Shown: piece after piece, positions 23,557-38,770 of the stretch
Numbering within the stretch: position 1 is the first letter of the stretch
Layout: every line of letters starts with the position of its first letter
Origin: an uncultured cyanobacterium
GTDB lineage: Bacteria; Cyanobacteriota; Cyanobacteriia; PCC-6307; Cyanobiaceae
NCBI GenBank assembly: GCA_903856805.1
Contig: CAIOCZ010000002.1
Span: forward strand, 1-39,073
Direction of reading: 5' to 3'
DNA length: 39,073 bases
Notes under the pieces: model-generated
Seen by the model: the letters and a program-made list of their open reading frames with translations, nothing else
Database searches by the model: none
Told to the model about the DNA's origin: nothing
Translations under genes and position numbers: made by a program

Positions 23557-23738
23557 GCGCTGGCCTGGAGTCGCTCCCAGCGCCGGTTCTGCCAGGCCAT
23601 CGTGCGCCAGATCAGCACCACCAGCAGGGCCGCGAACCAGAACCACACTTCTGGAGCGTTGGCGTGCAGCAGGACCACCAGAAAGGCAAGCTCCAGCCCC
23701 AGCCAGGGCAGTTCCCGGCGCAGGCTCCCGGTGGTCAT
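23508..23738 (-). CDS. Small membrane protein coupled to HlyD-type gene
   Basis: 76 residues from ATG 23738. Two hydrophobic helices (about 12-26 and 31-47) are joined by a short NAPEVW turn. The tail is basic, then Ser/Thr/Gly-rich. The ATG overlaps the stop of the HlyD-type gene by four bases, so it is translated with that gene. Its last 49 bases overlap the 3' end of the convergent TolC-like gene, so one of the two C-termini is constrained by the other. No family recognised. It might be an accessory part of the exporter. Confidence 0.68.
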   Translation of the reverse strand: MTTGSLRRELPWLGLELAFLVVLLHANAPEVWFWFAALLVVLIWRTMAWQNRRWERLQASAQEPPSTSGNATGSPG

Positions 23739-25051
23739 GGCAGCATCCCCCTCTGGCGCAGCTGGCTGTCATCCTGGCTCTCCTGCTGGTGCAGGGTGCG
23801 GTAGGTCCCGGTGAGGTCCCGCAGGATCGGCAGCAGATAGCTGACCGGTGGGCGCCATTCCACATAGCCATGGGCCTTGAGCGTCAGCCCCTGGCGAATC
23901 GGGAAGACACTGCTGCCCCGGCTGAGGGTCCAGCGATAGCCATCCAGGCTCGAGTTCTTGGAAGTACGGCTGGGATCCGGGCCCGTCGTCAGAAGGTCGA
24001 TCTCGGTGCGCATCACGGGTCCGTTGCGCACCAAGGCCTCCGCCAGCTGGGGATTGCCCATGGTGGTGTTGACGTCTTCGCGGGTGGCGGGAAGCAGGCT
24101 GATCCGGTTCACCTGACCGCGGATGCCGCCGAAGCGACCCCTCTCATTCCAGTCCGGGACCACCTCCATCATCAGGCCCTGCCGCAGCCGTCGTGCATCG
24201 GCCGGGGCGAAATAGGCCACGGCCTGCAGCGCTTCGCTAGTGCGGCTACCGAGGGTGCCAAGCCGTTCGCCGGGCTTCACGGTCTGGCCGCGCACCACCT
24301 GTAGATCAAGGAGGCGCCCAGCGCGATCGGCCCGCAGGGTGCCGTCGTAATTCAGTCGGGCCTGGGTCACCCGGATGGCGCGGCGGCCATCGTCGATGGC
24401 ATAGCGACGGCGCTGGGCCTCGGTCGCGATCTCCAATTTCACCTTGTCCCAGACGTCGATCGCCTCCCGCTCGCGGATGCTCACTTCGGCGACGCTGTTG
24501 CCCAGTTGGATCGCCCGGTCTTCGCTGGCCACCACCTCCTGGGCCAGGGGAGCGACCACCTCGCGGCTCGCCAGATGGCGGAAATCGGCCACTTTCTGGT
24601 CGTAGACACGGCGCAGGGAATCAAAGCGCTGGCGGTCAGCCTCCAGTTTGGCCAGGGCCGTATCCCGCAGGCGCCCGGCCGAGGCCAGTCGGTCGCGGTC
24701 GCGGCGGTCGAGATCGGTGTTGATCCGGACCAGTTCGGCCAAATCCCGCTCCTGACGGCGCAGCTGTTGCTCCAGGGTGGGCAGGTAGAGGCGGACCAGG
24801 GTCTGGCCCCGCTTCACCGCCTCGCCCACCCGTACCGGCAGGTCGAGAATCTGGCCTTCGGCTCGGGAATCGATCACCGTCGCGCCGCCGGGCACGATCA
24901 CCACGCCCCGGCCAATCACTTCGGTGGGCACGGGCCAGAACAGAAACCAGCCGGCGGTGAGGGCCCAGGCCGTGCCCAGAGCCACGAGCACCTGACGCTC
25001 GGGATGTCGGAGGGAACGTTCGCTGCGCCGATCCCCAGGAAGCGGGTTCAT
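23735..25051 (-). CDS. HlyD-type membrane fusion protein, NHLP/NHLM bacteriocin-exporter-like
   Basis: 438 residues from ATG 25051; GTG 25084 is an alternative. One transmembrane helix (about 21-40) is followed by a biotinyl-lipoyl half-domain (GRGVVIVPGGATVIDSRAEG), a long coiled coil (about 90-230), the second lipoyl half (RAGRLLDLQVVRGQTVKPGE) and a beta-barrel domain. The C-terminal pattern (IRGQVNRISLLP, then a GNPQLAEAL element, GYRWTLSRG and a final YLLPIL) matches what I recall of the NHLP bacteriocin-system HlyD family; this is from memory and needs a profile search. Such proteins link an inner-membrane exporter to TolC. No ABC transporter with peptidase domain is nearby. GMC1 lies 169 bases upstream on the same strand. 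Confidence 0.85.
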   Translation of the reverse strand: MNPLPGDRRSERSLRHPERQVLVALGTAWALTAGWFLFWPVPTEVIGRGVVIVPGGATVIDSRAEGQILDLPVRVGEAVKRGQTLVRLYLPTLEQQLRRQERDLAELVRINTDLDRRDRDRLASAGRLRDTALAKLEADRQRFDSLRRVYDQKVADFRHLASREVVAPLAQEVVASEDRAIQLGNSVAEVSIREREAIDVWDKVKLEIATEAQRRRYAIDDGRRAIRVTQARLNYDGTLRADRAGRLLDLQVVRGQTVKPGERLGTLGSRTSEALQAVAYFAPADARRLRQGLMMEVVPDWNERGRFGGIRGQVNRISLLPATREDVNTTMGNPQLAEALVRNGPVMRTEIDLLTTGPDPSRTSKNSSLDGYRWTLSRGSSVFPIRQGLTLKAHGYVEWRPPVSYLLPILRDLTGTYRTLHQQESQDDSQLRQRGMLP

Positions 25052-25220
25052 ACAGACCGGCTTCACCGTGCGCCTCTCCACCACAGCCCCCTTTCAGCCC
25101 AGCCTGTTCCAGGATCATGCCAAGCCCGCCAGGACAATGCCGCGGGCGGATCGGGCGGCGGCGGCAGACCTGGAGGATCTCCGGTGGTTGGAACCGAAGC
25201 CTGGGGGCGTGGCTGCTGGC

Positions 25221-26876
25221 TCACCCCCGCAGGCGCTCGACCAGATGGGTGCCCACCCGCAGGGCATTGGCGATGGCGGTGAGGGAGGGGTTCACCGCGC
25301 CGATCGTCGGCATGAAGCTGGTATCGACTACATAGAGGTTGTCGAGTTCGTGGGCTTTGCAGTTGATGTCCAGCACCGAACTGACCGGGTCGGTGCCGAA
25401 TCGGCAGGTGCCGGCCTGGTGCCCCACGGCGGCGATGCCCATGCTGTTGGCGATGTAGATCTGGCGCTCTACCAGGTGGTTGCGTAAATAGAGGCGATCG
25501 AGCATGCCCTCCAAACGGCTCACCAGACGCTGGGAGGCGGTGAGGTTGTTGGGGGTGTAGCTGAGTTGGATCTGCCCGGAGCTGGTCACGGTCACCCGGT
25601 TGTCGTGATCGGGGAGATCTTCGCTGGAGATCCAGAAGTCGATCGCGTGTTCGGCGATCTTGTCCATGCTCCAGCCCGGCATCAGGAAGGTTTCCAGCGG
25701 GGCATAGCCCTTCATGATCGTGCCGCTGGTCTTACCCGTCATTTGGATGTTTCCCATCGGGTAGTCGAAGTCGGCATCTCCGAGGTACCAGTCGTTGACG
25801 CAGACCGTTTTCTGGAAGGTGGTGGGGTTCGGCTCGTGGGCCAGGGCCACCATCGCCTTGCTGTTGTGGAACATGTAATGGCGGCCCACCTGGTCGGAGC
25901 CGTTGGCCAGGCCGCGGGGATGGCTGTCGTTGGCTGACATCAGCAGCAATCGGGCGCTGTTGGCGGCGCCACAGCTCACTACCACCACATCCCCACTCAC
26001 CGTCAGCGGTTCGCCGTCGCGCTCCAGTTCCACTGCCTTCACCGTGCGGCCGGATTCATCGGTCACCAGGCGCTTCACCTGGGACCGGGTCAGCAGCGAC
26101 ACATTCGGCGCCGCCAGGGCCGGCCGCATGCCCAGCACCTCGGCGTCCGACTTGGCGTGCACCAGGCAGGGGAAGCCATCGCAGCGGTTGCACTTGCGGC
26201 AGCGGCTGAAGGCCATGTTGGCCTCGTCGAGCATCACGCCGCTGGGGGCGTGGAAGGGATGGAGCCCGGCGGAGCGCAGATCATCCACCAGCTTCTGCAT
26301 GCGCGGCTCATGGGCCACCGGCGGATGGGGATAGGGGCCGCTGCAGGGCGGCTCGGTGGGATCCTCACCGCGCTGGCCATGCACGTGATACATCTCCTCG
26401 GCTTTTTGATACCAAGGCTCGAAATCGCTGTAGCGCAGGGGCCAGGCCGGCGAGATGCCATCGAAGTGAGCCAGCTCCTCGAAGTCCTGCTGGCGCAGGC
26501 GGAAGTGGGCGGCGCCGTACATCTTGGTGGCGCCGCCGACGAAGTAATGGCTGCCGGGCTGGAAGGCCTTGCCGTGTTTGTCCAGCCAGGGATCCTTCGA
26601 GACGTAGCGGTTTTCTTGGAACACCGCTTCCGCATCCCAGTTCTGAGGTTCCTGGGGCAGCCAGTCGCCCCGCTCCAGCACCAGAACCTTCAGGCCTGTG
26701 GGCGCCAGGTGGCGGGCCAGGGTGCCACCGCCGGCGCCGCTGCCGATGATCACCACATCGAAGTGGGCTCCGTTCGCGACCTGCAGCTGGGCCGCTTCGG
26801 GCAAGGGTGAGCTGGAGAAGGCCGGACCACCGAGCGCGGCAATGACGGCAGCGGTGCTGGGGGATGGGGAACTCAT
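25221..26876 (-). CDS. GMC-family oxidoreductase 1 (catalytic residues intact, four-Cys cluster)
   Basis: 551 residues from ATG 26876. An unstructured head of about 40 residues precedes the FAD Rossmann motif VVIIGSGAGGG (45-51). The catalytic pair of the family is present: H486 in GHQAGTCRFG and N529 in GAVNPSLTAIANALR. A cluster of four cysteines, C226, C229, C232 and C237, sits just before an AKSDA segment. Related FAD sugar dehydrogenases carry an Fe-S cluster in a comparable place, so these cysteines may bind metal or an Fe-S cluster. The family oxidises alcohol groups of sugars, sugar acids, choline or sterols; the substrate here is unknown. No typical Sec or Tat signal is visible, so it is likely cytoplasmic or peripheral. 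It is the last of the eight-gene co-directional block, 72 bases after the glucosidase. Confidence 0.9.
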   Translation of the reverse strand: MSSPSPSTAAVIAALGGPAFSSSPLPEAAQLQVANGAHFDVVIIGSGAGGGTLARHLAPTGLKVLVLERGDWLPQEPQNWDAEAVFQENRYVSKDPWLDKHGKAFQPGSHYFVGGATKMYGAAHFRLRQQDFEELAHFDGISPAWPLRYSDFEPWYQKAEEMYHVHGQRGEDPTEPPCSGPYPHPPVAHEPRMQKLVDDLRSAGLHPFHAPSGVMLDEANMAFSRCRKCNRCDGFPCLVHAKSDAEVLGMRPALAAPNVSLLTRSQVKRLVTDESGRTVKAVELERDGEPLTVSGDVVVVSCGAANSARLLLMSANDSHPRGLANGSDQVGRHYMFHNSKAMVALAHEPNPTTFQKTVCVNDWYLGDADFDYPMGNIQMTGKTSGTIMKGYAPLETFLMPGWSMDKIAEHAIDFWISSEDLPDHDNRVTVTSSGQIQLSYTPNNLTASQRLVSRLEGMLDRLYLRNHLVERQIYIANSMGIAAVGHQAGTCRFGTDPVSSVLDINCKAHELDNLYVVDTSFMPTIGAVNPSLTAIANALRVGTHLVERLRG

Positions 26877-26948
26877 GGAAAAAGTGGGATGATGGGAGGA
26901 GCTGGGCGGAAAGGGCTTATGGATCGCTGGGCTCAAATCTGGCTGGCT

Positions 26949-29672
26949 TTAGCCATCGGGGTAGCGGGAGAGTTGGTTGATCATCTTGCAAACCAACACG
27001 CTCCATCCGGTCTGGTGGGAGGCCCCGATACCGCTGCCATTGTCACCGTGAAAGTATTCGTAGAACAGGATTAGATCGCGCCAGTGGGGATCGTTCTGGA
27101 ACGTCTCCACCGCACCGTTGAAGGGGCGGTGGCCCTGGTCATCGCGGCGGAAGATCGCCACTAGCCGTTTCTCCAGCTCTAAGGACACCTGCCAGAGATT
27201 GAGCCAGTTGCCGGAGCGGGTGGGGAACTCCACTTTAAAGCTGTCACCATAGAAATGGGCGAATTTCTGTAGGGATTCAATGAGTAGGAAGTTCATCGGC
27301 ATCCATACTGGACCACGCCAATTGGAGTTGCCGCCAAACATGGCCACTGGGCTATCGGCCGGGCTATAGGCGAGGGTCTGGGTCTGGCTGCCCTCGGTAT
27401 AGCTGTAGGGGTGCTTTTCATACACCTTGGAAAGCGAGCGGATGCCGTAGGGAGAGAGAAATTCCTCCTCGTCAAAGAGGCGTTCGCAGATCCGTCGTAA
27501 GTGCTCTTTGGGGACGAGGGTGAATAGCACGCGGTCGTTGTTCCAGATTCCAAGGTTGTTCACAATCCAGGAGGGGGTTGTGCGCTCGTGGGTGAACCAG
27601 GCCAGGGAGTGGTTGACGTCAAGCATGGGTAGGCGTTGCACGGTGTCGATATCGAAGCTCTGCACCGCTAGCAGGGGCACCAATCCCGAGAGCGACCGAG
27701 TGCGTAGATAGTCGACACTTCCGTCGGGACGTTTGATCACGTCGTAGTAGAAGCCATCCTCTTCGTCCCAGTTGAGGTAGTCGCGACCGGAGGGGTTGTT
27801 GAGGCCGATCGCCAGCTGCACAAAGTCCACCACAAAACGCTCGCAGATGTCGGCGTATTCCGGCTCTTCACGGCTCAGTTCGACGGAGATCTGCAGCAGG
27901 TTGAGGCTGAGGGAGGCCATCCAGGCCGTGCCATCGCATTGCTCGATGATGCTGCCGTCAGCGAGGGGGAAGCGCCGATCAAAGACAGCGATGTTGTCCA
28001 GGCCTAGGAAACCACCCTGAAAGATGTTGTCGCCAGAGCGGTCGTTGCGGTTCGCCCACCAGCCGTATTCCAGGATCAGCTTGCGTAGGGCTGCCCGCAG
28101 GAAGGCCAGATCGGGGGCGTCGTTGTATTTGCGATCAATTTGGTAGATGCGCATCGCCGCCCAGGCACCAATCGGTGGATTGGGATCGGAGAGGGCCCAC
28201 TCGTAGGCCGGGGTCTGGGCGTTGGGGGCGGTGTAGTGGGGTTTGCGAAGCAGCATGCACTGCTTCTTGGCGGTGGCCGGATCGATGACGGCGAACGCCA
28301 CGGAGTGGAACATCAGATCCCACTGGCAGAAGTAGGGGTACTCCCAGCAGTCCGGCATCGAGATCACGTCGTGGGCGTGAAGGCGTTTCCAAATAGCGTT
28401 CTGGGTGTTGAGGCGTTCGGCGGGGGGAGGTGTGCCGGTGGGGTCACCCTCCAGCCAGCGCATCACGCTCCATCCGTAGTATTTTTTGCACCACAGCAGG
28501 CCAGCGCTGCCGGCTAGGAGGATGCGGCGGTCGTCATCGCTCAACCCATGCAGTCGATGGGCGTAGTAGTCCAGCCATTCACGCTCGCGGTCGGCGAAGA
28601 TCGTCGCGAACTCGTCAGAGAAGGGGGGGGTGGCGACCGCTGACGTGCCATCGACGCGGCGCAGGCGCAGCTCCACCACCCATTCTTCGCCGGCGGCCAA
28701 GGTGCGCTGCACCAGCCTGGCTGTTTTGCTCCCACGCAGGGCTGGATTCACCGCCCCGGCCTCGCCGTTAATCACGTGGCGATGGAAGCCATCCTTCTGG
28801 AAGGGGGTGGGGTTGGGCTGGCCCCAGAGTCGCTCGCTGTTGGTTTCGTTGTCGGTGAAGATCCAGGTTCCAGGCGCCTGGCAGTCGAGTTGATAAATCC
28901 CTAGATGGGGCAGGGAATCGGTGACGACGGCGCTGCTGCTGGGATCATTGTTCGCTGCGGCGTCTAGGGTGATCTGGTGCTCGATTTCGTCGGGATAGCC
29001 CCAGCGCCAGGTGTTGCGAAGCCACAGGCTGGGCAGCAGGGTGAGGGGTGCCGCTTCGGGGCCGCGGTTGGTGGCTTTGATTCTGATCAGTAGATCCTCC
29101 GCCCCCGCCTTGGCGTACTCGATGACGATCTCGAAGTAGCGGTTCTCGTTGAAAATACCTGTGTCAATCAGTTCGTATTCGGGCTGATCGCGTCCGCGAC
29201 GGCCGTTCTCCTCGATCAGTTTCTCGTAGGGGAAAACGCGTTGCGGATACTTGTAGAGCCCCCGCATAAAGCTGTGGGTGGGGGTGTTGGCCAGATGGAA
29301 GAAGTAGTCCTTGATGTCTTCTCCGTGGTTGCCCTCAGGGTTGCCGAGCCCAAAGGGGCGCTCCTTGAGGATCGGGTCGGCACCATTCCAGAGAGCCACC
29401 GAAAAGCACAGGCGGCACTGTTCGTCGCAGAGGCCCAGCAGTCCGTCCTCCCCCCAGCGGTAGACGCGGGAGCGGGCATGGTCGTGGGGGAAGGAGGTCC
29501 AGGCGTCGCCATCGGCGGAGTAGTCCTCGCGCACGGTTCCCCACTGGCGCTCGCTCAGGTAGCTACCCCAAAGGCTCCAAGGCGCGACGTCGTGGTCGCG
29601 CTCGGCGATGCGCCGGGTTTCGGAGGGGCTGATGGCGTCGATCTCGTCGCCGTAGGAGGATGGGGATGTCAT
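26949..29672 (-). CDS. GH63-like (alpha/alpha)6-barrel glucosidase
   Basis: 907 residues. The N-terminal half is a beta-rich domain with WSLWGSYLSERQWGTVREDYS at the start. The catalytic (alpha/alpha)6 barrel follows from about residue 370. Likely catalytic residues by analogy with GH63 are acid D452 (CQWDLMF) and base E872 (FYEYFHGDNGSGIGASH). The NWRGPVWMPMNFL motif is also typical of the barrel. Bacterial members hydrolyse alpha-glucosides, or glucosyl- and mannosyl-glycerate, a compatible-solute group; the substrate here cannot be told. No signal peptide is visible, so it is probably cytoplasmic. The ATG overlaps the GMC2 stop by four bases, so it is translated with the oxidoreductase. 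Length is near that of other bacterial members (about 880-900, from memory). Confidence 0.9.
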   Translation of the reverse strand: MTSPSSYGDEIDAISPSETRRIAERDHDVAPWSLWGSYLSERQWGTVREDYSADGDAWTSFPHDHARSRVYRWGEDGLLGLCDEQCRLCFSVALWNGADPILKERPFGLGNPEGNHGEDIKDYFFHLANTPTHSFMRGLYKYPQRVFPYEKLIEENGRRGRDQPEYELIDTGIFNENRYFEIVIEYAKAGAEDLLIRIKATNRGPEAAPLTLLPSLWLRNTWRWGYPDEIEHQITLDAAANNDPSSSAVVTDSLPHLGIYQLDCQAPGTWIFTDNETNSERLWGQPNPTPFQKDGFHRHVINGEAGAVNPALRGSKTARLVQRTLAAGEEWVVELRLRRVDGTSAVATPPFSDEFATIFADREREWLDYYAHRLHGLSDDDRRILLAGSAGLLWCKKYYGWSVMRWLEGDPTGTPPPAERLNTQNAIWKRLHAHDVISMPDCWEYPYFCQWDLMFHSVAFAVIDPATAKKQCMLLRKPHYTAPNAQTPAYEWALSDPNPPIGAWAAMRIYQIDRKYNDAPDLAFLRAALRKLILEYGWWANRNDRSGDNIFQGGFLGLDNIAVFDRRFPLADGSIIEQCDGTAWMASLSLNLLQISVELSREEPEYADICERFVVDFVQLAIGLNNPSGRDYLNWDEEDGFYYDVIKRPDGSVDYLRTRSLSGLVPLLAVQSFDIDTVQRLPMLDVNHSLAWFTHERTTPSWIVNNLGIWNNDRVLFTLVPKEHLRRICERLFDEEEFLSPYGIRSLSKVYEKHPYSYTEGSQTQTLAYSPADSPVAMFGGNSNWRGPVWMPMNFLLIESLQKFAHFYGDSFKVEFPTRSGNWLNLWQVSLELEKRLVAIFRRDDQGHRPFNGAVETFQNDPHWRDLILFYEYFHGDNGSGIGASHQTGWSVLVCKMINQLSRYPDG

Positions 29673-31183
29673 AGAGATGCCTTCATTGCTTCGGCGATCC
29701 GGAGGGCATTGGCAATCACCGTGAGGCCGATGCCCACCGATGGGCAGGAGGGCAACACGCTGGCATCGACGATCCAGAGGTTGTGCACCTCATGGCTGCG
29801 GCCCTCCAGGTTCACCACCGAGGTGGCTGGATCTGATCCCATGCGACAGGTGCCGCAGGCGCCGCCAATCACCGGCAGTGGGGCCTCGCCGCGGGGATGG
29901 ACGGGGGCCGCCTTGGTCACCAGAGTGAGGGGATCGGATTCCACGGCCTTGAGGCAGTCGATCCAGCGGTAAACGAGGCGGTCGTGGGCTTCGCGGTTAT
30001 TGGGGGTGTAGTTGATCTGCAGCTGGCTGCCGCGTAGCAACACTCGGTTGTGGGGATCGGGCCGCACGGCGCTCATCGCCCACCAGGTGATCGAGCGGGA
30101 GGCGAGCTGGTCGATGCCGAAATCGGGCAGCAGCTTGGTCACCAGGGAAAGTACCGGTGGCGATTCGGCAAACAGGGCATCCTGTAGAACGCCGCCGCCG
30201 CTGTGGATCGAGCCAAGCGGGAAGTCGACGTTCTTGTCACCCCAGTAGAAGTCGGTGATGCCGTGACCGCGGGCATAGCGACCTGAATTGGGGGCTGTTG
30301 CCAACTGCAGGATCGTGGTGAGCTGGGGCTTCATCAGGTTGCGGCCCACCTGGTCGGAACCATTGGCCAGGCCCCGGACGTGGTGGTCGGTGGCCGAGCG
30401 CAGCAGGATCTCCGGGGTGCCAATCGCTCCGGCGGCCATCACCACCTGATGGCCGCGGAAGAGCCAATGCTGGCCTGCGATGTCGACTTCGACGCCGCGC
30501 ACTTCCTGGCCGGAGGGGTTGACGTGGAGCTGCACGACTCGGGCGTGCTCCTTCACCGTCACGTTGGAGCAGGTGCGGACAGGATCGACGCCGAACAATT
30601 CGGCATCGCCGGTGGGATCGACGGCCGAATCGGACCAGCTCAGGGGGAGGTCGTAGGGATGGAGGCCCTGGCGCTCAAGAGCGCTGCGCAGTTCCACAAG
30701 GAAGGGCTCGAGCGGCCGCGGGGCGGCGGGATAGGGGCCCGTGCGGGCAGGGGCGGTGGGATCGGCCCCCGCCACACCGTGGACGCGATAGATCTCCTCA
30801 CCGCGTTCATACCAGGGTTCCAGATCGGCATAGCGGAGCTCCCAGTCTGGGGAGGGGCCTTCCTGCAGCTTGACGCCGCTGAATTCCTGTTCTCGCATGC
30901 GTTCGAGAACGCCGCCCCAGATCTTGGTGTTGCCACCGATGGCGTGAACCATCTGGGGGGAGAAAGGATCACCGTCGGTGCCGAACCATTTCTCCTCGGG
31001 GTGGTAGCGATCCTTGCGGAACAGATCCGCCTCCGAAAGGTTCTGATCCTCCAGGGGCATAACGCCCCCGCGTTCGAGTAGCAGCACTGAATGTCCGGCC
31101 GCCGATAGCGCACCCAGAAGGGTGCCGCCGCCGGCACCACTGCCGATCAGGATTACGTCGTAGTGGTTGTCATCGATGATCAT
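29669..31183 (-). CDS. GMC-family oxidoreductase 2, catalytic His and Asn replaced by Gly
   Basis: 504 residues. The FAD motif VILIGSGAGGGTL is at the N-terminus (about 10-23). The protein aligns with GMC1 throughout, including the shared RGLANGSDQVGR segment. At the position of the catalytic His it has GGACGTCRMG (Gly441), and at the catalytic Asn position SVGIGLT (Gly484). The four-Cys cluster of GMC1 is absent. The frame is intact and the flavin site kept, so this does not look like a decaying gene; it may oxidise by a different route, or serve as a non-catalytic partner of GMC1. The start lies three bases after the ctaE stop, and its stop overlaps the glucosidase start, so it links the oxidase to the sugar enzymes. 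Confidence 0.9.
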   Translation of the reverse strand: MIIDDNHYDVILIGSGAGGGTLLGALSAAGHSVLLLERGGVMPLEDQNLSEADLFRKDRYHPEEKWFGTDGDPFSPQMVHAIGGNTKIWGGVLERMREQEFSGVKLQEGPSPDWELRYADLEPWYERGEEIYRVHGVAGADPTAPARTGPYPAAPRPLEPFLVELRSALERQGLHPYDLPLSWSDSAVDPTGDAELFGVDPVRTCSNVTVKEHARVVQLHVNPSGQEVRGVEVDIAGQHWLFRGHQVVMAAGAIGTPEILLRSATDHHVRGLANGSDQVGRNLMKPQLTTILQLATAPNSGRYARGHGITDFYWGDKNVDFPLGSIHSGGGVLQDALFAESPPVLSLVTKLLPDFGIDQLASRSITWWAMSAVRPDPHNRVLLRGSQLQINYTPNNREAHDRLVYRWIDCLKAVESDPLTLVTKAAPVHPRGEAPLPVIGGACGTCRMGSDPATSVVNLEGRSHEVHNLWIVDASVLPSCPSVGIGLTVIANALRIAEAMKASL

Positions 31184-31186
31184 GGT

Positions 31187-31789
31187 TCAGGCTCTCCAGA
31201 CATAAAGCAGCACGAATAAGATGATCCAGATCACATCCACGAAGTGCCAGAACAGGGAAGTAGCTTTAACTCCTTCTTCGCCGCCGTTGTAGTTGCCAGG
31301 GATGAAGGACTTGGCAAGCATCACTCCCATCAACAGGATGCCGGTGGCCACATGTAGGCCATGGAAGCCGGTGAGAAGATAGAAGGTGCCGCCAAATGTG
31401 CCGGAGGTGAAGCCGAACTTGAGTCCACTCCATTCCACGGCCTGGCCGTAGAGGAAATAGGCTCCCATGGCCATCGTTAGTAGCCAGAAGCCTCGGAACA
31501 GCCAGAGCTTCTCCTTGCCCTTGAAATGTTCCGCCACCACCATCGTCAGGGAGCTGGAGACCAGCACCACTGTGTTGATGAGCGGCATGCGCCATTCCAG
31601 GCCCTCTACTCCGGCGGGAAGCCAGTCGAGGGCGGAGAGGCGCAGGACGGCGTAGCCACTAAAGAACACTAGGAAGATGACACTCTCGGAGCAAAGATAA
31701 ATAATGAATCCGGTCAAGTTGTGGTTGGCATGCTGTCCATTGCCGTGGGGGACGGCTTGGTCGGAGGGGGGGAGAGGGGTGCTGGTCAT
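31187..31789 (-). CDS. ctaE: Heme-copper oxidase subunit III
   Basis: 200 residues, five predicted transmembrane helices, as for the short cyanobacterial subunit III. Landmarks are FIIYLCSESVIFLVFFSGYAVL, NTVVLVSSSLTM, YLLTGFHGLHVATGILLM and the end SLFWHFVDVIWIILFVLLYVW; the conserved E and H of helix regions are kept. Subunit III stabilises the oxidase core. The first 26 residues are polar and cytoplasmic. The ATG overlaps the subunit I stop by four bases, and GMC2 begins three bases downstream of this gene's stop. Confidence 0.94.
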   Translation of the reverse strand: MTSTPLPPSDQAVPHGNGQHANHNLTGFIIYLCSESVIFLVFFSGYAVLRLSALDWLPAGVEGLEWRMPLINTVVLVSSSLTMVVAEHFKGKEKLWLFRGFWLLTMAMGAYFLYGQAVEWSGLKFGFTSGTFGGTFYLLTGFHGLHVATGILLMGVMLAKSFIPGNYNGGEEGVKATSLFWHFVDVIWIILFVLLYVWRA

Positions 31790-33462
31790 CGGGTCGCCTC
31801 TTGAAGGGTGAGAGCTCGCTCGATTTCGGCTTGGTGTTCCACCAGGGGAGCACCGCTGCCGTAGCCGTAGGGGCGGCTGATTACGGTGGGGACATGGTCA
31901 CCAAAGTTGTCTTCTGCCGGCGGCGAGGGCAGCAACCATTCCAGACCGATGGCATTCCAGGGATTGTGGTTGGCGCGGGGGCCACGGGCCCACGAACTGA
32001 TCATGTTGAGCAGGAAAGGAATGATCGATACGCCCAGGAGAAAGGCGCCCAGGCTGGCCAACACATTCCAGAAGGCGAACTCAGGGTCGTAGGAGGAGAC
32101 CCGGCGCGGCATCCCCATCAGACCGAGAGGATGCATGGGCAGGAAGTTGAGATTGGCGCCGACAAAGGTGAGCAGAAAATGGAGCTTACCCAGTCCCTCG
32201 TAGGGCATGCGGCCGGTGAACTTGGGGAACCAGTGGTAAACGGCAGCAAAGATGCACATGACGGCCGCACCATAGATCACGTAATGGAAGTGACCGACGA
32301 CGAAATAGGTGTTGTTGACGTGAATATCGATAGGCACGGTGGCCAGCATGACGCCAGTAATCCCTGCAAATACGAAGTTAACCAAACCGCCCAGGCAAAA
32401 CAACATGGGCGTCGTCAGTTGGAGTTTGCCACGCCAGATGGTGCCCAACCAGGCGAACACCTTGACCCCCGTCGGTACCGCAATCAACATTGTGTTGAAC
32501 ATGAATAGGTTGCGCATCCATTCGGGTACTCCGCTGGGGAAAAAGTGGTGCACCCAAACGATCAAGCCCAAGCCAACGATGATGAACGAAGCCACGGACA
32601 CATAGACGTATCCAAACAAAGGCTTGCGCGAATAAACGGGAAATAATTCAGAAAAGATGCCGAATGCCGGCAGGATGATCACGTAGACGGCTGGGTGGGA
32701 ATAGAACCAGAAGAAGTGCTGGTAGAGCACTGGGTCACCACCGCCTTCAGGCCTGTAAAATGAGGTGCCAGCCGTTAGGTCCATCAACAGCATGATGGCC
32801 CCGCCAGTAAGGGCGGGCAAGCCAATTAACTGCAGGCTCTGGGCGGCAAGGGCGGTCCAGCAAAACACTGGCATGCGAAATAGGCCCATGCCCGGGGCTC
32901 GCATGCGCAGGATGGTGGTGACGAAATTGACGGCCCCCATGATTGAGGACACGCCAGAAAGGGCCACGGCCACCAGCCACAGCCCTTGGCCACTGATCAG
33001 GTTGCCCAGGGGATTTTGGAGGCTCACCGGTGGATAGGCCCACCAGCCCGAGTAGGCAGGACCACCGGGAACGAAGAAGCTGGCAATCAGCAGGGTGCCG
33101 AAGATGGGGACCAGCCAGAAGGCCACCGCATTCAGCCGTGGAAAGGCCATGTCCGGGGCTCCGATCATGGTGGGAATCAGCAGATTATTGATTCCATTAA
33201 GTACCGGGAATATGAAAAGGAACAACATGATTGTTCCGTGCATCGTATAGAGACCGTTGTATACGGTGCGATCGACGAGATCGGAGGCTGGTGTGATCAG
33301 TTCTCCCCGGATGATCATGGCAAGGAAGCCACCGATCAGAAAATAGAAAAAGGCCAATACGATGTATTGGATACCAATCACTTTGGCGTCGGTGTTGAAG
33401 CTGAAATAGCGGGTCCAGCTCTGGTTTTCTTCTGTGCTGGGCAGGGGGATCGTGCTGGTCAT
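31786..33462 (-). CDS. ctaD: Heme-copper oxidase subunit I (A-type, YSHP variant)
   Basis: 558 residues from ATG 33462, four bases after the ctaC stop; the open frame extends upstream but overlaps ctaC. Twelve transmembrane helices are expected. Metal ligands are visible: H75 (MHGT) and H393 for the low-spin heme, H391 for the high-spin heme, H256, H305 and H306 for CuB, and Y260, the tyrosine that cross-links to H256. The helix VI motif is YSHPAVY instead of the GHPE of classic A1 oxidases, as in A2-type enzymes. It reduces oxygen to water in the cytoplasmic or thylakoid membrane. In cyanobacteria the oxidase set is Cox, ARTO and Cyd; the CuA-less partner here points to the ARTO type. Confidence 0.95.
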   Translation of the reverse strand: MTSTIPLPSTEENQSWTRYFSFNTDAKVIGIQYIVLAFFYFLIGGFLAMIIRGELITPASDLVDRTVYNGLYTMHGTIMLFLFIFPVLNGINNLLIPTMIGAPDMAFPRLNAVAFWLVPIFGTLLIASFFVPGGPAYSGWWAYPPVSLQNPLGNLISGQGLWLVAVALSGVSSIMGAVNFVTTILRMRAPGMGLFRMPVFCWTALAAQSLQLIGLPALTGGAIMLLMDLTAGTSFYRPEGGGDPVLYQHFFWFYSHPAVYVIILPAFGIFSELFPVYSRKPLFGYVYVSVASFIIVGLGLIVWVHHFFPSGVPEWMRNLFMFNTMLIAVPTGVKVFAWLGTIWRGKLQLTTPMLFCLGGLVNFVFAGITGVMLATVPIDIHVNNTYFVVGHFHYVIYGAAVMCIFAAVYHWFPKFTGRMPYEGLGKLHFLLTFVGANLNFLPMHPLGLMGMPRRVSSYDPEFAFWNVLASLGAFLLGVSIIPFLLNMISSWARGPRANHNPWNAIGLEWLLPSPPAEDNFGDHVPTVISRPYGYGSGAPLVEHQAEIERALTLQEATR

Positions 33463-33466
33463 GGCC

Positions 33467-34405
33467 TCAGGAGTCGTGGGGGAGCGAGTTGGAACCGGGA
33501 ACGTTGACCTGAGGCGGTGGGGCCGGCCGCACGGTGGCCCAGCCAGGGTGGCTCTGACTCTGTCGCTGCACATACTCACCAACGGCATCACTCAGGCCGC
33601 TCTGGAGAGGTTGGGCGGCAGCCTGCTTTAACCAGGCCTGGAAAGTGTCGTCGCTTTCCACCACAACATCGGCCTGGTTTGCGGCGAACCAGGTGCCGCT
33701 GAACTGGGAATCCCTTAGCCGATAGCGACCCTCACGGGTGGGGGTGAGAGTGAAGTCGATGGCTTTGCCAGGAATTACATCCTGCTTGAGTCGGAAGGCT
33801 GGGATGTAGAAGCCATGGATCACATCATCCGAGGTGAGCCGGAAGGTGACCGGTAGATTGACAGGAAGATGGAGCTCCGTGGAGGAGACATGGGCATTGG
33901 GATAACGAAATTCCCAGGACCATTGGCGGGCGATCACTTCAATCGATTCGGCAGGGAGCCGATCCCCCGGGTAGCCGCCCTTGGCCTCAAGGGAGTTATG
34001 GGGATGGATGTGCTCCATCGGACCGAGGATCCCAAGCTCATGGTTGATTCGCATGGCGTAAACCGCGATGCTCATGACGATGACCAGGGGAATCAGGGTC
34101 CAGATCACCTCCAGGCGGGGGTTGCCTTCGATCGGCTCGGCATCGGTTTTGTCATACTTCTCAGCGCGATGCATCAGCACCACCCAGGTCATCACGGAGA
34201 TCACACTGAGAAAGACAAAGGTGCCCAACCCTGTCTCGAAGCTGAACAGGCCATCCACGAGGGGGGCGGCATTAGAAGCCTGAACAGGCAGCCAGTGATA
34301 GGCCTGGCCGGCCATCCAGTAACTGATCAGCACCATCAGGCCGATCCAGAGGACCAGAGCGACCAAGGCGACGGGGCCGGGGCGCCGTGGGGACGAGGAG
34401 GTCAT
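33467..34405 (-). CDS. ctaC: Heme-copper oxidase subunit II lacking CuA ligands (ARTO-like)
   Basis: 312 residues. Topology matches subunit II: an N-terminal helix (about 12-32), two helices (about 56-80 and 98-118) with NPRLEVIWTLIPLVIVM between, and a periplasmic cupredoxin domain (WSWEFRYPN, DVIHGFYIPAF). The CuA site is lost. H197 is kept, but the positions of Cys-x-Glu-x-Cys-x3-His-x2-Met hold D232, Q234, S236, F240 and N243. The enzyme is therefore unlikely to take electrons from cytochrome c in the usual way. This loss is known for the cyanobacterial alternative respiratory terminal oxidase, which is thought to use quinol. The C-terminal tail (about 270-312) is Pro/Gln-rich. The gene lies 12 bases after the DUF2231-type genes. 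Confidence 0.93.
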   Translation of the reverse strand: MTSSSPRRPGPVALVALVLWIGLMVLISYWMAGQAYHWLPVQASNAAPLVDGLFSFETGLGTFVFLSVISVMTWVVLMHRAEKYDKTDAEPIEGNPRLEVIWTLIPLVIVMSIAVYAMRINHELGILGPMEHIHPHNSLEAKGGYPGDRLPAESIEVIARQWSWEFRYPNAHVSSTELHLPVNLPVTFRLTSDDVIHGFYIPAFRLKQDVIPGKAIDFTLTPTREGRYRLRDSQFSGTWFAANQADVVVESDDTFQAWLKQAAAQPLQSGLSDAVGEYVQRQSQSHPGWATVRPAPPPQVNVPGSNSLPHDS

Positions 34406-34417
34406 GGGAAGAAAGCC

Positions 34418-35098
34418 CTAGGGAAGGGCGTCGTGAAGATCGACTCCGGTGGCCAGGAGCTGGTCGGCGGTGATGTGGACGCCGAACTCGGCGGCCAGTT
34501 CGGCTCCGAGGGTGCCGTGCAGGCCGATCACCAGAAACAACCCAAGGCCCACCAGCAGGTAGAGCCACTGAACCTGGCGGCCCATGTCACGGCGCCAGAG
34601 GAAGCGCTGATAGCCGCGCCATACCGTCATGGTGATGATCGCCAGCAGGATCGCTACACCACCGACCCCATGCCAAAGCATGGTTTCCATACTCTGCAGG
34701 CCGATGCTGCTGGTGACCCCTGGGATCGGCACCGCCAAAAGCATTTCGAAGAAGCCTGCCGCCACCGTGAAGAAGCTCACGACGGCGCAGGCCAGCAGGT
34801 TGTACCAACCCACGTTGTGGAAGCCGGCGCGGGTGATCGGCAGGGCCAGAAAGCGGAACAGTCTCTTCTCAACCGGAAAGAGGGCACCTGCGATATCGAA
34901 GGCGATGGCGATCACGAACAGACCGATCGTGAAATGGACTAGATTGGGATGGATTGGCAGGCTGTAGGGCAAGTCATTGGGACCAAGCCAGCTCGCCAGC
35001 TGACGAATCGGCGACGCGGCAGGCAATACGGTCGTCTCAACCAGCAGCGTGGCCACGGCGGAGGCGGGTGGCTGGAGTGGAGACAGGAGAACGTCCAT
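34418..35098 (-). CDS. DUF2231-type four-helix membrane protein B (histidine-rich)
   Basis: 226 residues from ATG 35098. After a 48-residue N-terminal region there are four hydrophobic helices (about 54-72, 98-122, 142-160 and 178-197). Histidines H50, H55, H143 and H208 align with those of the protein encoded just upstream; H94 and H194 are extra. The motif IHPNLVHFTIGLFVIAIAFD opens helix 1. Several aligned histidines in four-helix membrane proteins often bind heme. It lies between a paralog and ctaC, so a role in feeding electrons to the CuA-less oxidase is plausible. The direct abutment to the upstream stop (no gap) suggests coupled translation. Family name is from memory of such proteins in oxidase clusters. 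Confidence 0.82.
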   Translation of the reverse strand: MDVLLSPLQPPASAVATLLVETTVLPAASPIRQLASWLGPNDLPYSLPIHPNLVHFTIGLFVIAIAFDIAGALFPVEKRLFRFLALPITRAGFHNVGWYNLLACAVVSFFTVAAGFFEMLLAVPIPGVTSSIGLQSMETMLWHGVGGVAILLAIITMTVWRGYQRFLWRRDMGRQVQWLYLLVGLGLFLVIGLHGTLGAELAAEFGVHITADQLLATGVDLHDALP

Positions 35099-35596
35099 TT
35101 AGATCAATCCGGCGCGGCCGGCGGCCACCACAGGCACCGTATGGAGGCCATAGACCCAGATCAGTTGGTTCCCCAGGGTGACCTGTACCACCACGAGCAG
35201 GGCTAGCACCCCATCGGCCGCCAGGAAAGGCAGCGGCAGGCTTTCGGGATCACGGTTGCGCAGCACATAGCGCCAACCGGTGAGCAATGAAAGGACGCCG
35301 GAGAGGGACCAGCCCAGGGTGCTGTGCAGATTGAGGATGGAACGGGAGGCTCCGTAGGGATTCGCCAGTCCAGCCTCGACTTGGCCAAAGATGATCGCCA
35401 CGAAAATGGCCGCCGTGGCGAACAGCAGGTTCCAGAAGCTGACCTCAAACAGGTTGGGTCGCCGCATCACAACGCCGATTAGATCGAAGACCACGCTGAT
35501 CACCGCCATGGCGATAACAAAGTGGACCACGATTGGATGGAGAGTGTCCATCCATGGCAGGTTGTGATCGTTTAGCGGTGGCAGCAGCTGCTGCAT
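35099..35596 (-). CDS. DUF2231-type four-helix membrane protein A (histidine-rich)
   Basis: 165 residues from ATG 35596, the first gene of the oxidase block. Four hydrophobic helices (about 24-43, 53-72, 92-110 and 128-150) match the paralog downstream. The shared motif is LHPIVVHFVIAMAVISVVFD at helix 1, then FWNLLFATAA, LHSTLGW and a final TLGNQLIWVYGLH. Four histidines are conserved with the paralog: H20, H25, H91 and H152. In a four-helix membrane protein these could bind one or two b-type hemes. It starts 115 bases from the Nif11-type gene's 3' end; the operon promoter is expected in that gap, where I see a partial dyad. Confidence 0.82.
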   Translation of the reverse strand: MQQLLPPLNDHNLPWMDTLHPIVVHFVIAMAVISVVFDLIGVVMRRPNLFEVSFWNLLFATAAIFVAIIFGQVEAGLANPYGASRSILNLHSTLGWSLSGVLSLLTGWRYVLRNRDPESLPLPFLAADGVLALLVVVQVTLGNQLIWVYGLHTVPVVAAGRAGLI

Positions 35597-35655
35597 CGGG
35601 TCTTGGCCGTATCGGGCCTTATCAGGATGACAACAGTCTCCCGGTTGCGCTCGGT

Positions 35656-35674
35656 ATGCAATGGATCAATGCAT
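35656..35674. promoter_or_regulatory. Imperfect 19-base dyad upstream of the oxidase block
   Basis: The sequence ATGCAATGGATCAATGCAT is an interrupted palindrome (ATGCAnTGnnnnCAnTGCAT type, five-base perfect ends). It lies 60 bases upstream of the first oxidase-block gene, in the only sizeable gap before it, next to a CATAAT that could be a -10 box on the minus strand (35676-35681). A repressor or activator site is possible; it could be chance. Confidence 0.35.
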
Positions 35675-35711
35675 GATTATGGTCATTTGCACACGCAGGC
35701 TGCGGTGCGAC

Positions 35712-36008
35712 TCAGTCTTTGTCACTGGCGCCGAAGGCGTGCATGAGGGCGTCACCCCAGCTGTTGATCGCTTCCAGTGTGTGGTCGGGAGCTGTGCTGA
35801 TGGCTGCCGCGTGGGCCTTGAGAAGGGTGGCTTTGCTGAACGTGTGACCATGGCTGGTGGCCAAGTCGACGACATCGTCGAGACCGGTGGCGGCCTGCAG
35901 TTTCTGGTGCAGCCGCTCATCGTTGACGGCGCTGTTGACAAAGGCCTTGAGGGCGGTGAGCGACACGGGCGGAGAGCAAGTGAGGGAATCTGCATCCTGG
36001 CAGGGCAT
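35712..36008 (-). CDS. Nif11-domain protein
   Basis: 98 residues from ATG 36008; a GTG at 35966 would give 84 residues that begin exactly at the domain (SLTALKAFVNSAVNDERL). The Nif11 pattern is clear: LKAF, then LHQKLQAATGLDDVVDLATSHGHTFSKATLL, then a helical tail (LEAINSWGDALM). Nif11 domains occur as leaders of nitrile-hydratase-like/N11P peptides and also as stand-alone proteins. Here no Gly-Gly cleavage site or core peptide follows, so it is more likely a stand-alone Nif11 protein of unknown function. It is co-directional with the oxidase block, 115 bases upstream of it, and divergent from the NDH-2 gene, which begins 55 bases away. Confidence 0.82.
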   Translation of the reverse strand: MPCQDADSLTCSPPVSLTALKAFVNSAVNDERLHQKLQAATGLDDVVDLATSHGHTFSKATLLKAHAAAISTAPDHTLEAINSWGDALMHAFGASDKD

Positions 36009-36063
36009 GGCGCTTTTGGACGGAAATTGCAACTAGCGTGCAGAACTACCACCCTTTAAACCA

Positions 36064-37491
36064 ATGGCGAAGGAACGCTTCTTCCTCGAGCTAGTACCCA
36101 GCGAAGCCGTGATGAAGAGTTGGCCCCATGTGGTGATCGTGGGTGGCGGCTTTGCGGGACTCAAAGCGGCTCATCGCCTCGCCGGCAAGCCTGTGCGGGT
36201 CACGTTGGTGGACAAGCGCAACTTCAATCTTTTTCAACCTCTGCTTTATCAGGTGGCTTCCGGTTTGGTTTCCGAAGCCGATGTGGCCACACCCCTGCGG
36301 TTACTGCTAGCTAAGTCGTCGAATGTGCAGGTGCTGCTTGGCGAGGTGGTCGATCTCGACCCCGATAAGCGCGAGGTGGTGTTCAACGATCGACACCTCC
36401 GCTATGACAACCTGATTCTGGCCACGGGCTCCGGGAGCACCTACTTCGGCCATGAGGAGTGGCGCGAACTGGCGCCGCCGATGAAGATCATCGAGCACGC
36501 CGACGAGATCCGTCGCCGCGTGCTCTCGGCCTTGGAGGAGGCGGAACAGACCCCGGATGTGGAACGGTGTCGTTTCCTGCAAACGGCGGTGGTGGTGGGC
36601 GGTGGACCCTCCGGCTGTGAGCTGGCCGGATCGCTCAATGAATTGATGCAGCACGCGGCACGGCGCGATTTCCGTCAATTGGATCCGCAGTTGTGCCGAG
36701 TGATTTTGGTGGATCCTGGTGATCGGGTGCTGCGGGCGATGACGCCAGATCTCTCCGAGGCGGCCGGTGATTATCTGAACTCCCGTGGCGTCGAGTTGGT
36801 GCTGGGCGGCCGGGTGCAGAGCATCGAGGCGGGCCGCCTTACTGTGGACTTCAAAACGCCGCCCCCTGGGACGCCTGCCGAGCGCGTCCTAGAAGCCGCC
36901 ACCATCTGCTGGAGTGCTGGGGTGTGCGCCTCCCACCTCGGAAAGCTGCTGGCGGATCGCACGGGTTGCAACGTCGATCGCGGTGGGCGGGTCGTCGTCG
37001 AACCGGATTTTTCCATTGCCGGCCATCCGGAGATTCGGGTGGTGGGCGATCTCTGCTCCTATGCCCACACCGTCGATGGCAAGCCCCTGCCGGGCATGGC
37101 TGGACCGGCGGTGCAGATGGGGGGCTGGGTTGCTCTCGATCTGTTGTCCCAGTTGAGCGGCGAACGCCAGCCCACCTTCCGCTGGTTTGATTTCGGCAGC
37201 ATGGCGGTGATCGGCCCCCTGTTTGCCGTGGCCGATCTGCGTGGCGTCAAGATCACCGGTGCCTTCGGCTGGTTGCTGTGGGGCTTGGCCCACTTGGCCT
37301 TCATGCCGGCCAATGAAAACCGCCTCACCCTGCTGACCAAGTGGCTGTGGATGATCGCCACGCGCCAGCGGGCCAGTCTGCTGATCACTGGCCGGGCTGA
37401 TCAGCACATGGGGGTGGAGGTGGGCTTGGAACGGGCTGAACGGATTGAGGAGTCAAAACCGCCCGAGCCGCAGGTGTCAGCTGCTAGCTGA
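36064..37491 (+). CDS. Type II NADH dehydrogenase (NDH-2)
   Basis: 475 residues from ATG 36064; ATG 36112 would give a tighter start just before the flavin fold. The FAD motif VVIVGGGFAGLKAA is at 23-36, LVDKRNFNLFQPLLYQVASG follows, and the NAD(P)H-binding motif VVVGGGPSGCELAGSL is at 177-191. The second FAD contact is RVVGDLCSY (about 325-333), with the quinone-site MAGPAVQMG (about 344-354). C-terminal amphipathic helices (about 400-445) fit a monotopic membrane anchor. It oxidises NADH and reduces quinone without pumping protons. Cyanobacteria use such enzymes for redox balance. The divergent arrangement with the ARTO-type oxidase suggests that the two may be controlled together. Confidence 0.93.
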   Translation: MAKERFFLELVPSEAVMKSWPHVVIVGGGFAGLKAAHRLAGKPVRVTLVDKRNFNLFQPLLYQVASGLVSEADVATPLRLLLAKSSNVQVLLGEVVDLDPDKREVVFNDRHLRYDNLILATGSGSTYFGHEEWRELAPPMKIIEHADEIRRRVLSALEEAEQTPDVERCRFLQTAVVVGGGPSGCELAGSLNELMQHAARRDFRQLDPQLCRVILVDPGDRVLRAMTPDLSEAAGDYLNSRGVELVLGGRVQSIEAGRLTVDFKTPPPGTPAERVLEAATICWSAGVCASHLGKLLADRTGCNVDRGGRVVVEPDFSIAGHPEIRVVGDLCSYAHTVDGKPLPGMAGPAVQMGGWVALDLLSQLSGERQPTFRWFDFGSMAVIGPLFAVADLRGVKITGAFGWLLWGLAHLAFMPANENRLTLLTKWLWMIATRQRASLLITGRADQHMGVEVGLERAERIEESKPPEPQVSAAS

Positions 37492-37561
37492 TTTCGTTCT
37501 GGGTGCTGCTCCTGCCCCCGTTCCTTCCTTAACCACAACTCTTACTTCTTCCACAGAGTCC

Positions 37562-38770
37562 ATGTCATGTTTCCCTAGTCGGCTCCTGCCGCGGCAACAA
37601 TGTTTGGTGTCCCTGCTGCTCGGAGCTTCGATGCTCATGGCCTGCAGGCCGGCAGCCGCTGCCGTGCCGATGGGGGCAGCCTGTTTACCCGGCAGTCCCG
37701 TGGCCCGGGATTGTCGGAATCTCGTGATCATCAATTCTCCTGAATATCCTGAATCTGAGTCTCCTCAGTTAACTGTCCAGGCCTTTGATCAGGAATTTGC
37801 AGAGATCGTGGGCCGCACACCTAATCTCATTCCGATCGCCACTGGCTTTGGTTTTACTGAAGGTCCGGTCTTCTTGAAAGATCCAAAGGGACCTGGGGGG
37901 ATGTTGTTGGTCACGGATCAGATTCACAACAGCATCTATTCGATTCGTTGGAATGGTCTGGATGCAAACGGGACCATGACCTCCTCATCTTGGCAGGAGC
38001 CTCGCCTATTTCGCAATCCTTCCGGTGTGGCAGATGGTCAGACTCCTGATCTTCAGGGGAATCTGCTGACAGCTGAAACCACCGGCCGACGGGTTTCGAT
38101 CACTCGAAGTTTCGCAGCTAATCTGAAAAGTCCTGAACCCCAGGCGCCTTCGCTGGTGGATCATTACCAGGGGAAACCCCTGAACTCGCCAAATGATCTC
38201 GTTGTTAAAAGCGACGGGACTGTTTGGTTTACTGATCCCAGTTATGGATCATTACAGTTTCCACCCCAGCCAGCTGAATTGCCCAATAACGTCTATCGAT
38301 ACGACCCTTCCACCAAGCAGCTCACCGTTGTTGAGCCTGGTCTCGTCATGCCGAATGGCATTGCTTTTGGTCCTGGAGAGAAGACTCTCTACATCATTGA
38401 CAGTGGAGCCATCCAGGGGCCTCGGACATACTTCTCATACCTTCCTCACCGCATTTATCGTTATGACGTGAGCCGAGATGGGCGATCGCTTGAAAATAAG
38501 AGTCTCTACGCAAATGTGTCCCCAGGCTTTCCCGATGGTATGAGGCTGGATGAGAAAGGAAATGTTTATGTTGGTACTCTTGAAGGGATCCATGTGCTCA
38601 ATCCCCAGGGCAAGTTGATTGGTAAATTCTTGATGGCCAAGCAGACTGCCAATCTTGCCTTTGGAGGTGTTGATAACAATATATTGTTCATCACCTCTAG
38701 TAATACTGTTTGGGCCGTTAAGTTGAATACGCGCGGCCTTGTGCCAGTGCGGACTATTCCACGACCATGA
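37562..38770 (+). CDS. Secreted SMP-30/gluconolactonase-like beta-propeller protein
   Basis: 402 residues from ATG 37562. The N-terminus is a signal peptide with a lipobox-like LMAC (C28), so it is either a lipoprotein or cleaved after PAAAA. The six-bladed propeller has the metal and substrate motifs of the SMP-30/LRE family: E100 (GFTEGPVF), N211 (NSPNDLVV), N265 (MPNGIAFGP) and D325 (PDGM). Members hydrolyse sugar lactones such as gluconolactone, the product of sugar-1-dehydrogenases. The base composition is much less GC-rich than the left half of the window, a sign of recent acquisition. It follows NDH-2 on the same strand after 70 bases. The lactone substrate is unknown. Confidence 0.87.
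   Translation: MSCFPSRLLPRQQCLVSLLLGASMLMACRPAAAAVPMGAACLPGSPVARDCRNLVIINSPEYPESESPQLTVQAFDQEFAEIVGRTPNLIPIATGFGFTEGPVFLKDPKGPGGMLLVTDQIHNSIYSIRWNGLDANGTMTSSSWQEPRLFRNPSGVADGQTPDLQGNLLTAETTGRRVSITRSFAANLKSPEPQAPSLVDHYQGKPLNSPNDLVVKSDGTVWFTDPSYGSLQFPPQPAELPNNVYRYDPSTKQLTVVEPGLVMPNGIAFGPGEKTLYIIDSGAIQGPRTYFSYLPHRIYRYDVSRDGRSLENKSLYANVSPGFPDGMRLDEKGNVYVGTLEGIHVLNPQGKLIGKFLMAKQTANLAFGGVDNNILFITSSNTVWAVKLNTRGLVPVRTIPRP

Follow-up and report, generated by a model that had tools for sequence, protein, structure and literature searches.

Why would the genes of a CuA-less terminal oxidase stand in one row with those of a glycoside hydrolase and two GMC-type flavoproteins? The question is raised by a stretch of 39,073 nucleotides from an uncultured cyanobacterium of the Cyanobiaceae (hereafter the window), whose genome, G000, comprises 3.0 Mb in 185 contigs with a tool-calculated completeness of 99.49%. 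Eight minus-strand genes lie almost end to end at positions 25221-35596 and encode, in this order, two DUF2231 membrane proteins (DUFa and DUFb), subunits II, I and III of an alternative respiratory terminal oxidase (ARTO; genes ctaC, ctaD and ctaE), a GMC-fold flavoprotein (GMC2), a GH63-type glycoside hydrolase and a second GMC flavoprotein (GMC1). A sequence-only reading of this block had proposed that a glycoside is hydrolysed, that its sugar is oxidised by the two GMC proteins as a pair, and that the electrons are delivered to the oxidase. The analysis described here supports that interpretation in part. The answer proposed below, to which a probability of roughly one half is given, is a composite respiratory operon in which an ARTO-GMC2 module has been joined to a GH63-GMC1 module for sugar oxidation, with quinone between the two.

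The gene families and the common direction of the block are as the sequence-only reading had described them, except that two of the frames are probably called too long: the likeliest start of ctaD is 33462 (an ATG located 4 bases past the ctaC stop) rather than 33591, and that of GMC1 is 26876 (an ATG located 72 bases past the GH63 stop) rather than 26936. The compact spacing that had been pointed out, with overlaps or gaps of 0-12 bases up to the glucosidase gene and 72 bases before GMC1, was reproduced in the window. The successive junctions measure 0 (DUFa-DUFb), 12 (DUFb-ctaC) and 4 bases (ctaC-ctaD), a 4-base overlap (ctaD-ctaE), 3 bases (ctaE-GMC2), another 4-base overlap (GMC2-GH63) and finally the 72 bases between GH63 and GMC1. 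The eight genes are probably cotranscribed. Scans of positions 24900-36200 returned a single site resembling a promoter, which is on the plus strand, against 2.8 expected, and 10 sites resembling a terminator, against 7.0 expected, so that neither the start nor the end of a transcript can be placed.

Relatives of the block were collected by scanning contigs with a DUFa alignment, the best 80 of at least 570 matches being kept as relative loci. All of them are titled cyanobacteria, apart from one bin titled Bifidobacterium breve (L161), and the nearest are of the Cyanobium/Synechococcus type. Gene order was counted in the 54 loci with at least 9.8 kb of downstream sequence, the 26 shorter ones being set aside. 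A search for the same order in other cyanobacteria, proposed along with the sequence-only reading, recovered GMC2, GH63 and GMC1 behind the oxidase in 39 of these 54 loci; all eight genes are called in order in 38, and the 39th has no DUFb called. The remaining loci contain ARTO, GMC2 and GH63 (three loci), ARTO and GMC2 alone (eleven loci) or no GMC2 (one locus, L204). Carriers of the block include Synechococcus sp. RCC307 (L220), S. lacustris Tous (L211), Synechococcus sp. BO 8801 (L168) and Cyanobium usitatum Tous (L182). Over the relative loci, ctaE is followed by GMC2 in 64/64 cases, GMC2 by GH63 in 50/62 and GH63 by GMC1 in 41/45. The GMC2-GH63 junction is typically a 4-base overlap (median -4; 54/54 within -20 to 30 bases) and the ctaE-GMC2 junction falls within the same limits in 58/67 cases, while the GH63-GMC1 junction is looser (median 30, range -20 to 177, 23/45 within -20 to 30); all these lengths use the start nearest the upstream stop, a choice that biases them toward short gaps. 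The order is kept at DUFa identities of 72-98%. The eight-gene block is genuine and conserved beyond chance.

Linkage across the phylum divides this block in two. Among 292 genomes, GH63 was found in 57, and matches to the GMC2, GMC1 and ctaD queries in 49, 52 and 151, respectively. Each GMC query also matches the family of the other, and the ctaD query also matches ordinary oxidases; the matches were sorted before counting. ARTO was defined by 60% identity to the query ctaD (the next listed match is at 58%), and the counts omit GMC1/GMC2 cross-matches, distant or fragmentary GMC rows, and GH63 fragments (two of G066, G032, G016:C248, G125:C1:5628272 and G060:C23:672186). An ARTO ctaD lies less than 6 kb from GMC2 in 32/32 GMC2 rows, from 12 families (0.12 expected; this and the following chance estimates treat genomes as independent, and kinship makes them too optimistic), including 18/18 rows outside the window's family. 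Counted from the oxidase, GMC2 is near 32 of the 78 ARTO rows, and near 14/14 in the window's family. GMC1, for its part, is found within 9 kb of GH63 in 16/35 rows (0.17 expected), nine of them among the 28 rows outside that family. Among 151 genomes of the family, GMC1 is present in 42 and GMC2 in 67, and GMC1 never occurs without GMC2; the two are within 5 kb of each other in 32 of the 42 and about 14-15 kb apart in G221 and G288. GMC2 thus tracks ARTO, GMC1 is often near GH63, and GMC1 is apart from GMC2 outside the family. The block therefore consists of two old units, DUFa-DUFb-ctaC-ctaD-ctaE-GMC2 on the one hand and GH63-GMC1 on the other, which were joined in the window's family.

The two flavoproteins also differ in their residues. 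Both have as their best PDB match the FAD-glucose dehydrogenase of Burkholderia cepacia (BcGDH), whose published description places a 3Fe-4S cluster at Cys212, Cys218 and Cys222, next to which lies Cys213, and names His476/Asn519 as the likely catalytic pair (PMC6719666). Rows shorter than 480 residues were omitted from the counts. In GMC1, the His of this pair is found in 70/70 rows and the Asn in 69/70, with one gap, and the CxxCxxCxxxxC cluster has four Cys in 66/70 rows and three in the other 4; in the alignment, these conserved residues fall at or beside BcGDH His476/Asn519 and Cys212/213/218/222. In GMC2, the Asn is present in 0/98 rows and the His in 12/98, and the Cys cluster is missing from 98/98. 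These figures omit the GMC2 candidate of L147, classed as a distant GMC (26% identity, end branch of 7.43); with this row counted they become 0/99 and 13/99, with 98/99 lacking the Cys stretch. The FAD glycine motif is matched in 95/99 GMC2 and 62/70 GMC1 rows. Judged by these residues, GMC1 appears to be a normal enzyme and GMC2 to be without the usual active site, so that the pair of sugar-oxidising GMC enzymes of the sequence-only reading is reduced to GMC1: its partner follows ARTO and not the glucosidase. In a tree of 83 rows (all 60 from the phylum-genome loci and the window, plus 11 of 41 GMC1 and 12 of 68 GMC2 from relative loci), GMC1 and GMC2 fall on separate sides of a branch with 100/100 support. 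A His at the catalytic position is also found in eight GMC2 rows of relative loci. The His-keeping GMC2 of G174, G058, G211 and G005 adjoin GMC1 when this tree is midpoint-rooted, a placement consistent with an ARTO-linked GMC2 lineage that has lost its active site. A motif scan found nothing Tat-like in GMC1 or GMC2 rows (no signal-peptide predictor was run), and both proteins are likely cytosolic.

The oxidase, in turn, is remarkable for what it lacks. The CuA motif CxExCxxxHxxM is absent from 34/34 CtaC rows, which bears out the description of a CuA-less enzyme. In an alignment with E. coli CyoB, the positions that we take to be those of heme, CuB, the active-site Tyr and K362 are kept in 37/37 CtaD rows, and the presumed bo3 quinol-site residues R71, D75, H98 and Q101 are all replaced in the same 37. 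G000 holds one further COX1 gene, and the subunit II adjoining it has an intact CuA motif; used as a control, the ordinary oxidase of the genome is itself without counterparts of R71, D75 and H98, the Gln being present. ARTO thus lacks the two electron-entry sites tested, CuA and the bo3 quinol site. The missing bo3 residues would still be compatible with a quinol donor, as other quinol sites are possible.

The two membrane-protein genes that precede subunit II, as in type-1 ARTO, encode proteins with invariant residues, namely His20, His25, His91, His152 and Glu74 in 33/33 DUFa rows and His50, His55, His143 and His208 in 31/31 DUFb rows. An AlphaFold2 model of DUFa (pLDDT 83.2) has four helices, with the conserved His near the helix ends on one face. 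This face may tentatively be placed on the outer side on account of the loop charges, themselves a weak guide. In other heme-copper oxidases, electrons enter on the outer face. Fold searches with the model returned generic four-helix bundles alone (best Foldseek match a cytochrome bd chain, E 0.088; VIA-align Z up to 14.1 with designed bundles and about 13 with oxidase subunit III), and a single-sequence PDB search with DUFa gave no match. No fold was therefore assigned to DUF2231, and heme binding is undecided by fold. The DUF2231 proteins and GMC2 could possibly form an electron-entry module.

The glycoside hydrolase passes the Pfam cut-offs of its family (39.3 bits for PF03200 against a cut-off of 22.4, and 70.7 bits for PF22422 against 27), and its kinship to solved enzymes is distant: a profile search matched the mannosyl-oligosaccharide glucosidase 4j5t at 1.4e-8, and a single-sequence PDB search gave no match. 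Asp452 and Glu872, which we take to be the catalytic acid/base pair of GH63, are invariant in 18/18 sequences and weakly aligned with the PDB GH63 chains. No signal peptide is evident by eye (no predictor was run). Glucosylglycerol was considered as a self-made substrate and rejected, since G000 has no GgpS match and a pool of its own is hence unlikely; an imported glycoside could serve instead. In five loci devoid of ARTO genes (L105, L106, L109, L110 and L132), a MIP-type channel is encoded beside or near GH63, a possible sign of a small polyol or glycoside. A close relative also has a second GH63 copy (G175:C2:336-2924, 49% identity to the query), on a contig other than that of its ARTO.

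The neighbors of the two modules were surveyed in 80 phylum-genome loci and the window; these loci were picked by their matches and the counts are descriptive. Around either module, recurrent genes encode a short-chain dehydrogenase/reductase (SDR; 31 genes in 27 loci), NDH-2 (14 loci), an SMP-30 lactonase (10), a glyoxalase-like protein (10), a MIP channel (9) and DoxX (8). The three SDR proteins tested all had their highest score with a glucose-1-dehydrogenase model, and two of them also passed the cut-off of a second such model. NDH-2 occupies a position like that in the window in 19/80 relative loci. In other families, four loci (L104 of G203, L112 of G060, L113 of G129 and L114 of G125) combine ARTO with subsets of GMC1, GH63, SDR, lactonase, glyoxalase-like protein, DoxX and NDH-2. 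Their ARTO is more distant, with a CtaD identity of 60-63%, and has no GMC2, and the order of the neighbors varies. That genes for sugar enzymes also surround ARTO in these families fits a sugar oxidation feeding this oxidase.

On these grounds, the composite operon could operate as follows. GH63, probably cytosolic, would cleave a glycoside to release a sugar (glucose being the likeliest); GMC1 would oxidise this sugar by means of its FAD and a probable Fe-S cluster, yielding a lactone that the neighboring lactonase could open. The electrons would most probably be handed to the plastoquinone pool in the cytoplasmic membrane, which NDH-2 would feed as well, and ARTO would pass them from the pool to oxygen. 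GMC2 would be a flavoprotein dedicated to the oxidase, probably an electron-transfer or regulatory partner. The glycoside-to-oxidase pathway of the sequence-only reading is thus plausible, and gains from the other arrangements in which genes for sugar enzymes accompany ARTO elsewhere, but the use of GMC2 as a sugar oxidiser has to be removed from it.

Several observations weigh against the composite operon. Inside the eight-gene block there is no counterpart of the gamma and cytochrome c subunits of BcGDH (the rest of the genome was not searched). Eleven of the 54 loci have ARTO-GMC2 without GH63-GMC1, L204 has neither, and GMC2 is missing from the 6 kb around 46 of the 78 ARTO rows. Outside the window's family, GMC1 is near GMC2 in 0/28 rows, and the only links to ARTO are those of 3/28 GMC1 rows (within 15 kb, 0.13 expected) and 3/58 GH63 rows (within 20 kb, 0.25 expected), figures to which the optimism of the chance estimates also applies. 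The GH63-GMC1 pair exists in G185, G111, G036 and G215, where an ordinary-type ctaD alone was detected, and therefore does not require ARTO. Scattered homologs had been named beforehand as a finding that would count against the idea; the link holds inside the family, but outside it 55/58 GH63 rows have no ARTO within 20 kb, and GH63-GMC1 is also seen where no ARTO was found. Gluconate kinase, considered as a last step, appears to stand outside the conserved set: it is present in G000, but in 1/151 family genomes, about 22 of some 40 candidates per genome having been scored.

The strongest rival, less probable than the composite operon although it deserves serious attention, makes ARTO a plastoquinol oxidase of the ordinary kind, with which the glucosidase and the flavoproteins merely share their regulation (during darkness or mixotrophic growth, for instance), no electrons passing directly between them; GMC2 would then be a dehydrogenase with an unusual active site and another substrate. 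A review does assign ARTO the role of a plastoquinol oxidase (PMC6616624), GH63-GMC1 and ARTO are each found by themselves, and the FAD motif of GMC2 is nearly always retained. This explanation is at odds with the loss of the four bo3 quinol-site residues from every CtaD, other quinol sites being possible, and the constant position of GMC2 beside ARTO is tighter than co-regulation demands. A bolder form of the composite operon, put forward as a speculation, would have the DUF2231 pair carry, on the outer face, a His-rich site for heme or metal and GMC2, turned to electron transfer, supply with it the missing entry to ARTO; the picocyanobacterial oxidase, wired to a glucosidase/sugar-dehydrogenase pair, would then be a self-contained line from glycoside to oxygen.

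It is rather improbable that the DUF2231 pair and GMC2 serve instead the maturation of ARTO or its metal handling (heme or copper insertion, Fe(III) reduction) and not its supply with electrons from sugar. The conserved His and Glu of DUFa and DUFb, which in the DUFa model are at helix ends on one, weakly outer, face would suit this role. Moreover, ARTO has been linked to the reduction of Fe(III) and to niches poor in iron, and a ctaD2/ctaE2 mutant is quoted, from the work of others, as impaired in Fe reduction and uptake (PMC10119275). The reported link leaves room for a role in iron. Maturation, however, leaves unexplained why the glucosidase and GMC1 are attached and why other families have genes for sugar enzymes close to ARTO. 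Lastly, a passive order, kept by descent in one small-genome clade with no shared function, is very unlikely: although the full order is restricted to family f1 among the phylum genomes and to closely related relative loci, the short junctions with their typical 4-base overlaps, the persistence of the order over the whole range of DUFa identity and the different arrangements that these genes take around ARTO elsewhere all speak against it.

Features of the eight-gene block and of its immediate surroundings in the window
Feature	Position	Strand	Remarks
Nif11-domain small protein	35712..36032	-	upstream of block; start uncertain; PF07862 3.9e-10; TIGR03798 39.2 bits (cut-off 32.3)
DUFa, DUF2231 membrane protein a	35099..35596	-	PF09990 1.2e-35; four helices
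DUFb, DUF2231 membrane protein b	34418..35098	-	PF09990 1.4e-37
ctaC, oxidase subunit II without CuA motif	33467..34405	-	PF00116, PF02790
ctaD, oxidase subunit I	31786..33462	-	PF00115 5.6e-151 (scored on longer frame)
ctaE, oxidase subunit III	31187..31789	-	PF00510 3e-28
GMC2, ARTO-linked GMC-fold flavoprotein	29669..31183	-	PF05199, PF00732
GH63/MGH1-like glycoside hydrolase	26949..29672	-	PF22422 2.2e-19, PF03200 4.6e-10
GMC1, FAD-glucose-dehydrogenase-like	25221..26876	-	best PDB match 6a2u, glucose dehydrogenase, 4.9e-35
NDH-2-type pyridine nucleotide-disulphide oxidoreductase	36064..37491	+	PF07992 7.2e-44; PF22366 NDH2_C 22.6 bits, below cut-off of 27.7; divergent neighbor
SMP-30/gluconolactonase-like protein	37445..38770	+	PF08450 3.4e-33; real start probably past NDH-2 stop

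The Nif11-domain gene, which the sequence-only reading had not listed, is located between NDH-2 and the ARTO block on the strand of the latter and has a tblastn match in 13/161 loci; 11 of these matches are near-full-length (71-78% identity) and just upstream of DUFa. On the other side of the block, positions 23735-25084 (minus strand) encode an HlyD-type adaptor that passes the cut-off of an NHLP bacteriocin export model and comes after GMC1 in 4/80 relative loci. A TolC-like outer membrane protein gene adjoins it on the opposite strand (21847-23556, plus). Farther away, at positions 5917-10596 (minus strand), a transglutaminase-core (TgpA-type) gene, a gene left without a name and one for a MoxR-type AAA ATPase stand in a row; a pentapeptide-repeat frame overlaps the first.

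The block names candidates for extra subunits of ARTO, since the two DUF2231 proteins and GMC2 are encoded beside the oxidase in 12 families, and it offers a direct handle on the uncertain electron source of this enzyme. In picocyanobacteria, the glucosidase and the glucose-dehydrogenase-like GMC1 join these candidates. If the composite operon is real, phototrophs usually deemed autotrophs would have a dedicated route to burn the sugar of glycosides. The most intriguing aspect is the combination of an oxidase-bound GMC2 deprived of the usual active site with an electron entry that the two tested sites do not explain.

Some parts of this assembly have known counterparts. Literature searches, with most subscription journals beyond reach, found no paper connecting ARTO with GMC, GH63 or DUF2231 genes. 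The GMC1 protein resembles BcGDH (6a2u) in its His/Asn pair and in the four Cys at the place of the Fe-S cluster (PMC6719666). It departs from it by the spacing of these Cys and by having no adjoining gamma or cytochrome c subunit, and GMC2 is without the residues in question. Another GMC flavoprotein tied to a respiratory chain is the mycobacterial MftG, reported to bring electrons from mycofactocinol to respiration (PMC11778925). It is the best NCBIfam match of GMC1; an assignment of GMC1 as MftG was rejected, with 76 bits against a cut-off of 387 and no mycofactocin radical-SAM gene above cut-off in G000. Like ARTO, cytochrome bo3 of E. coli has heme and CuB ligands and no CuA, but its R71, D75, H98 and Q101 are those missing from the 37 CtaD rows. 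The review cited above names plastoquinol as the donor of ARTO and regards its further subunits as undecided (PMC6616624). The closest parallel is the type-1 ARTO operon of Anabaena sp. PCC 7120, alr2729-alr2730-coxB3-coxA3-coxC3, which as cited there comprises no GMC or GH63 gene, unlike the block, and whose first two genes are likened to the DUF2231 pair by position alone (PMC6616624). In both, two genes precede those of subunits II, I and III, and subunit II is devoid of CuA.

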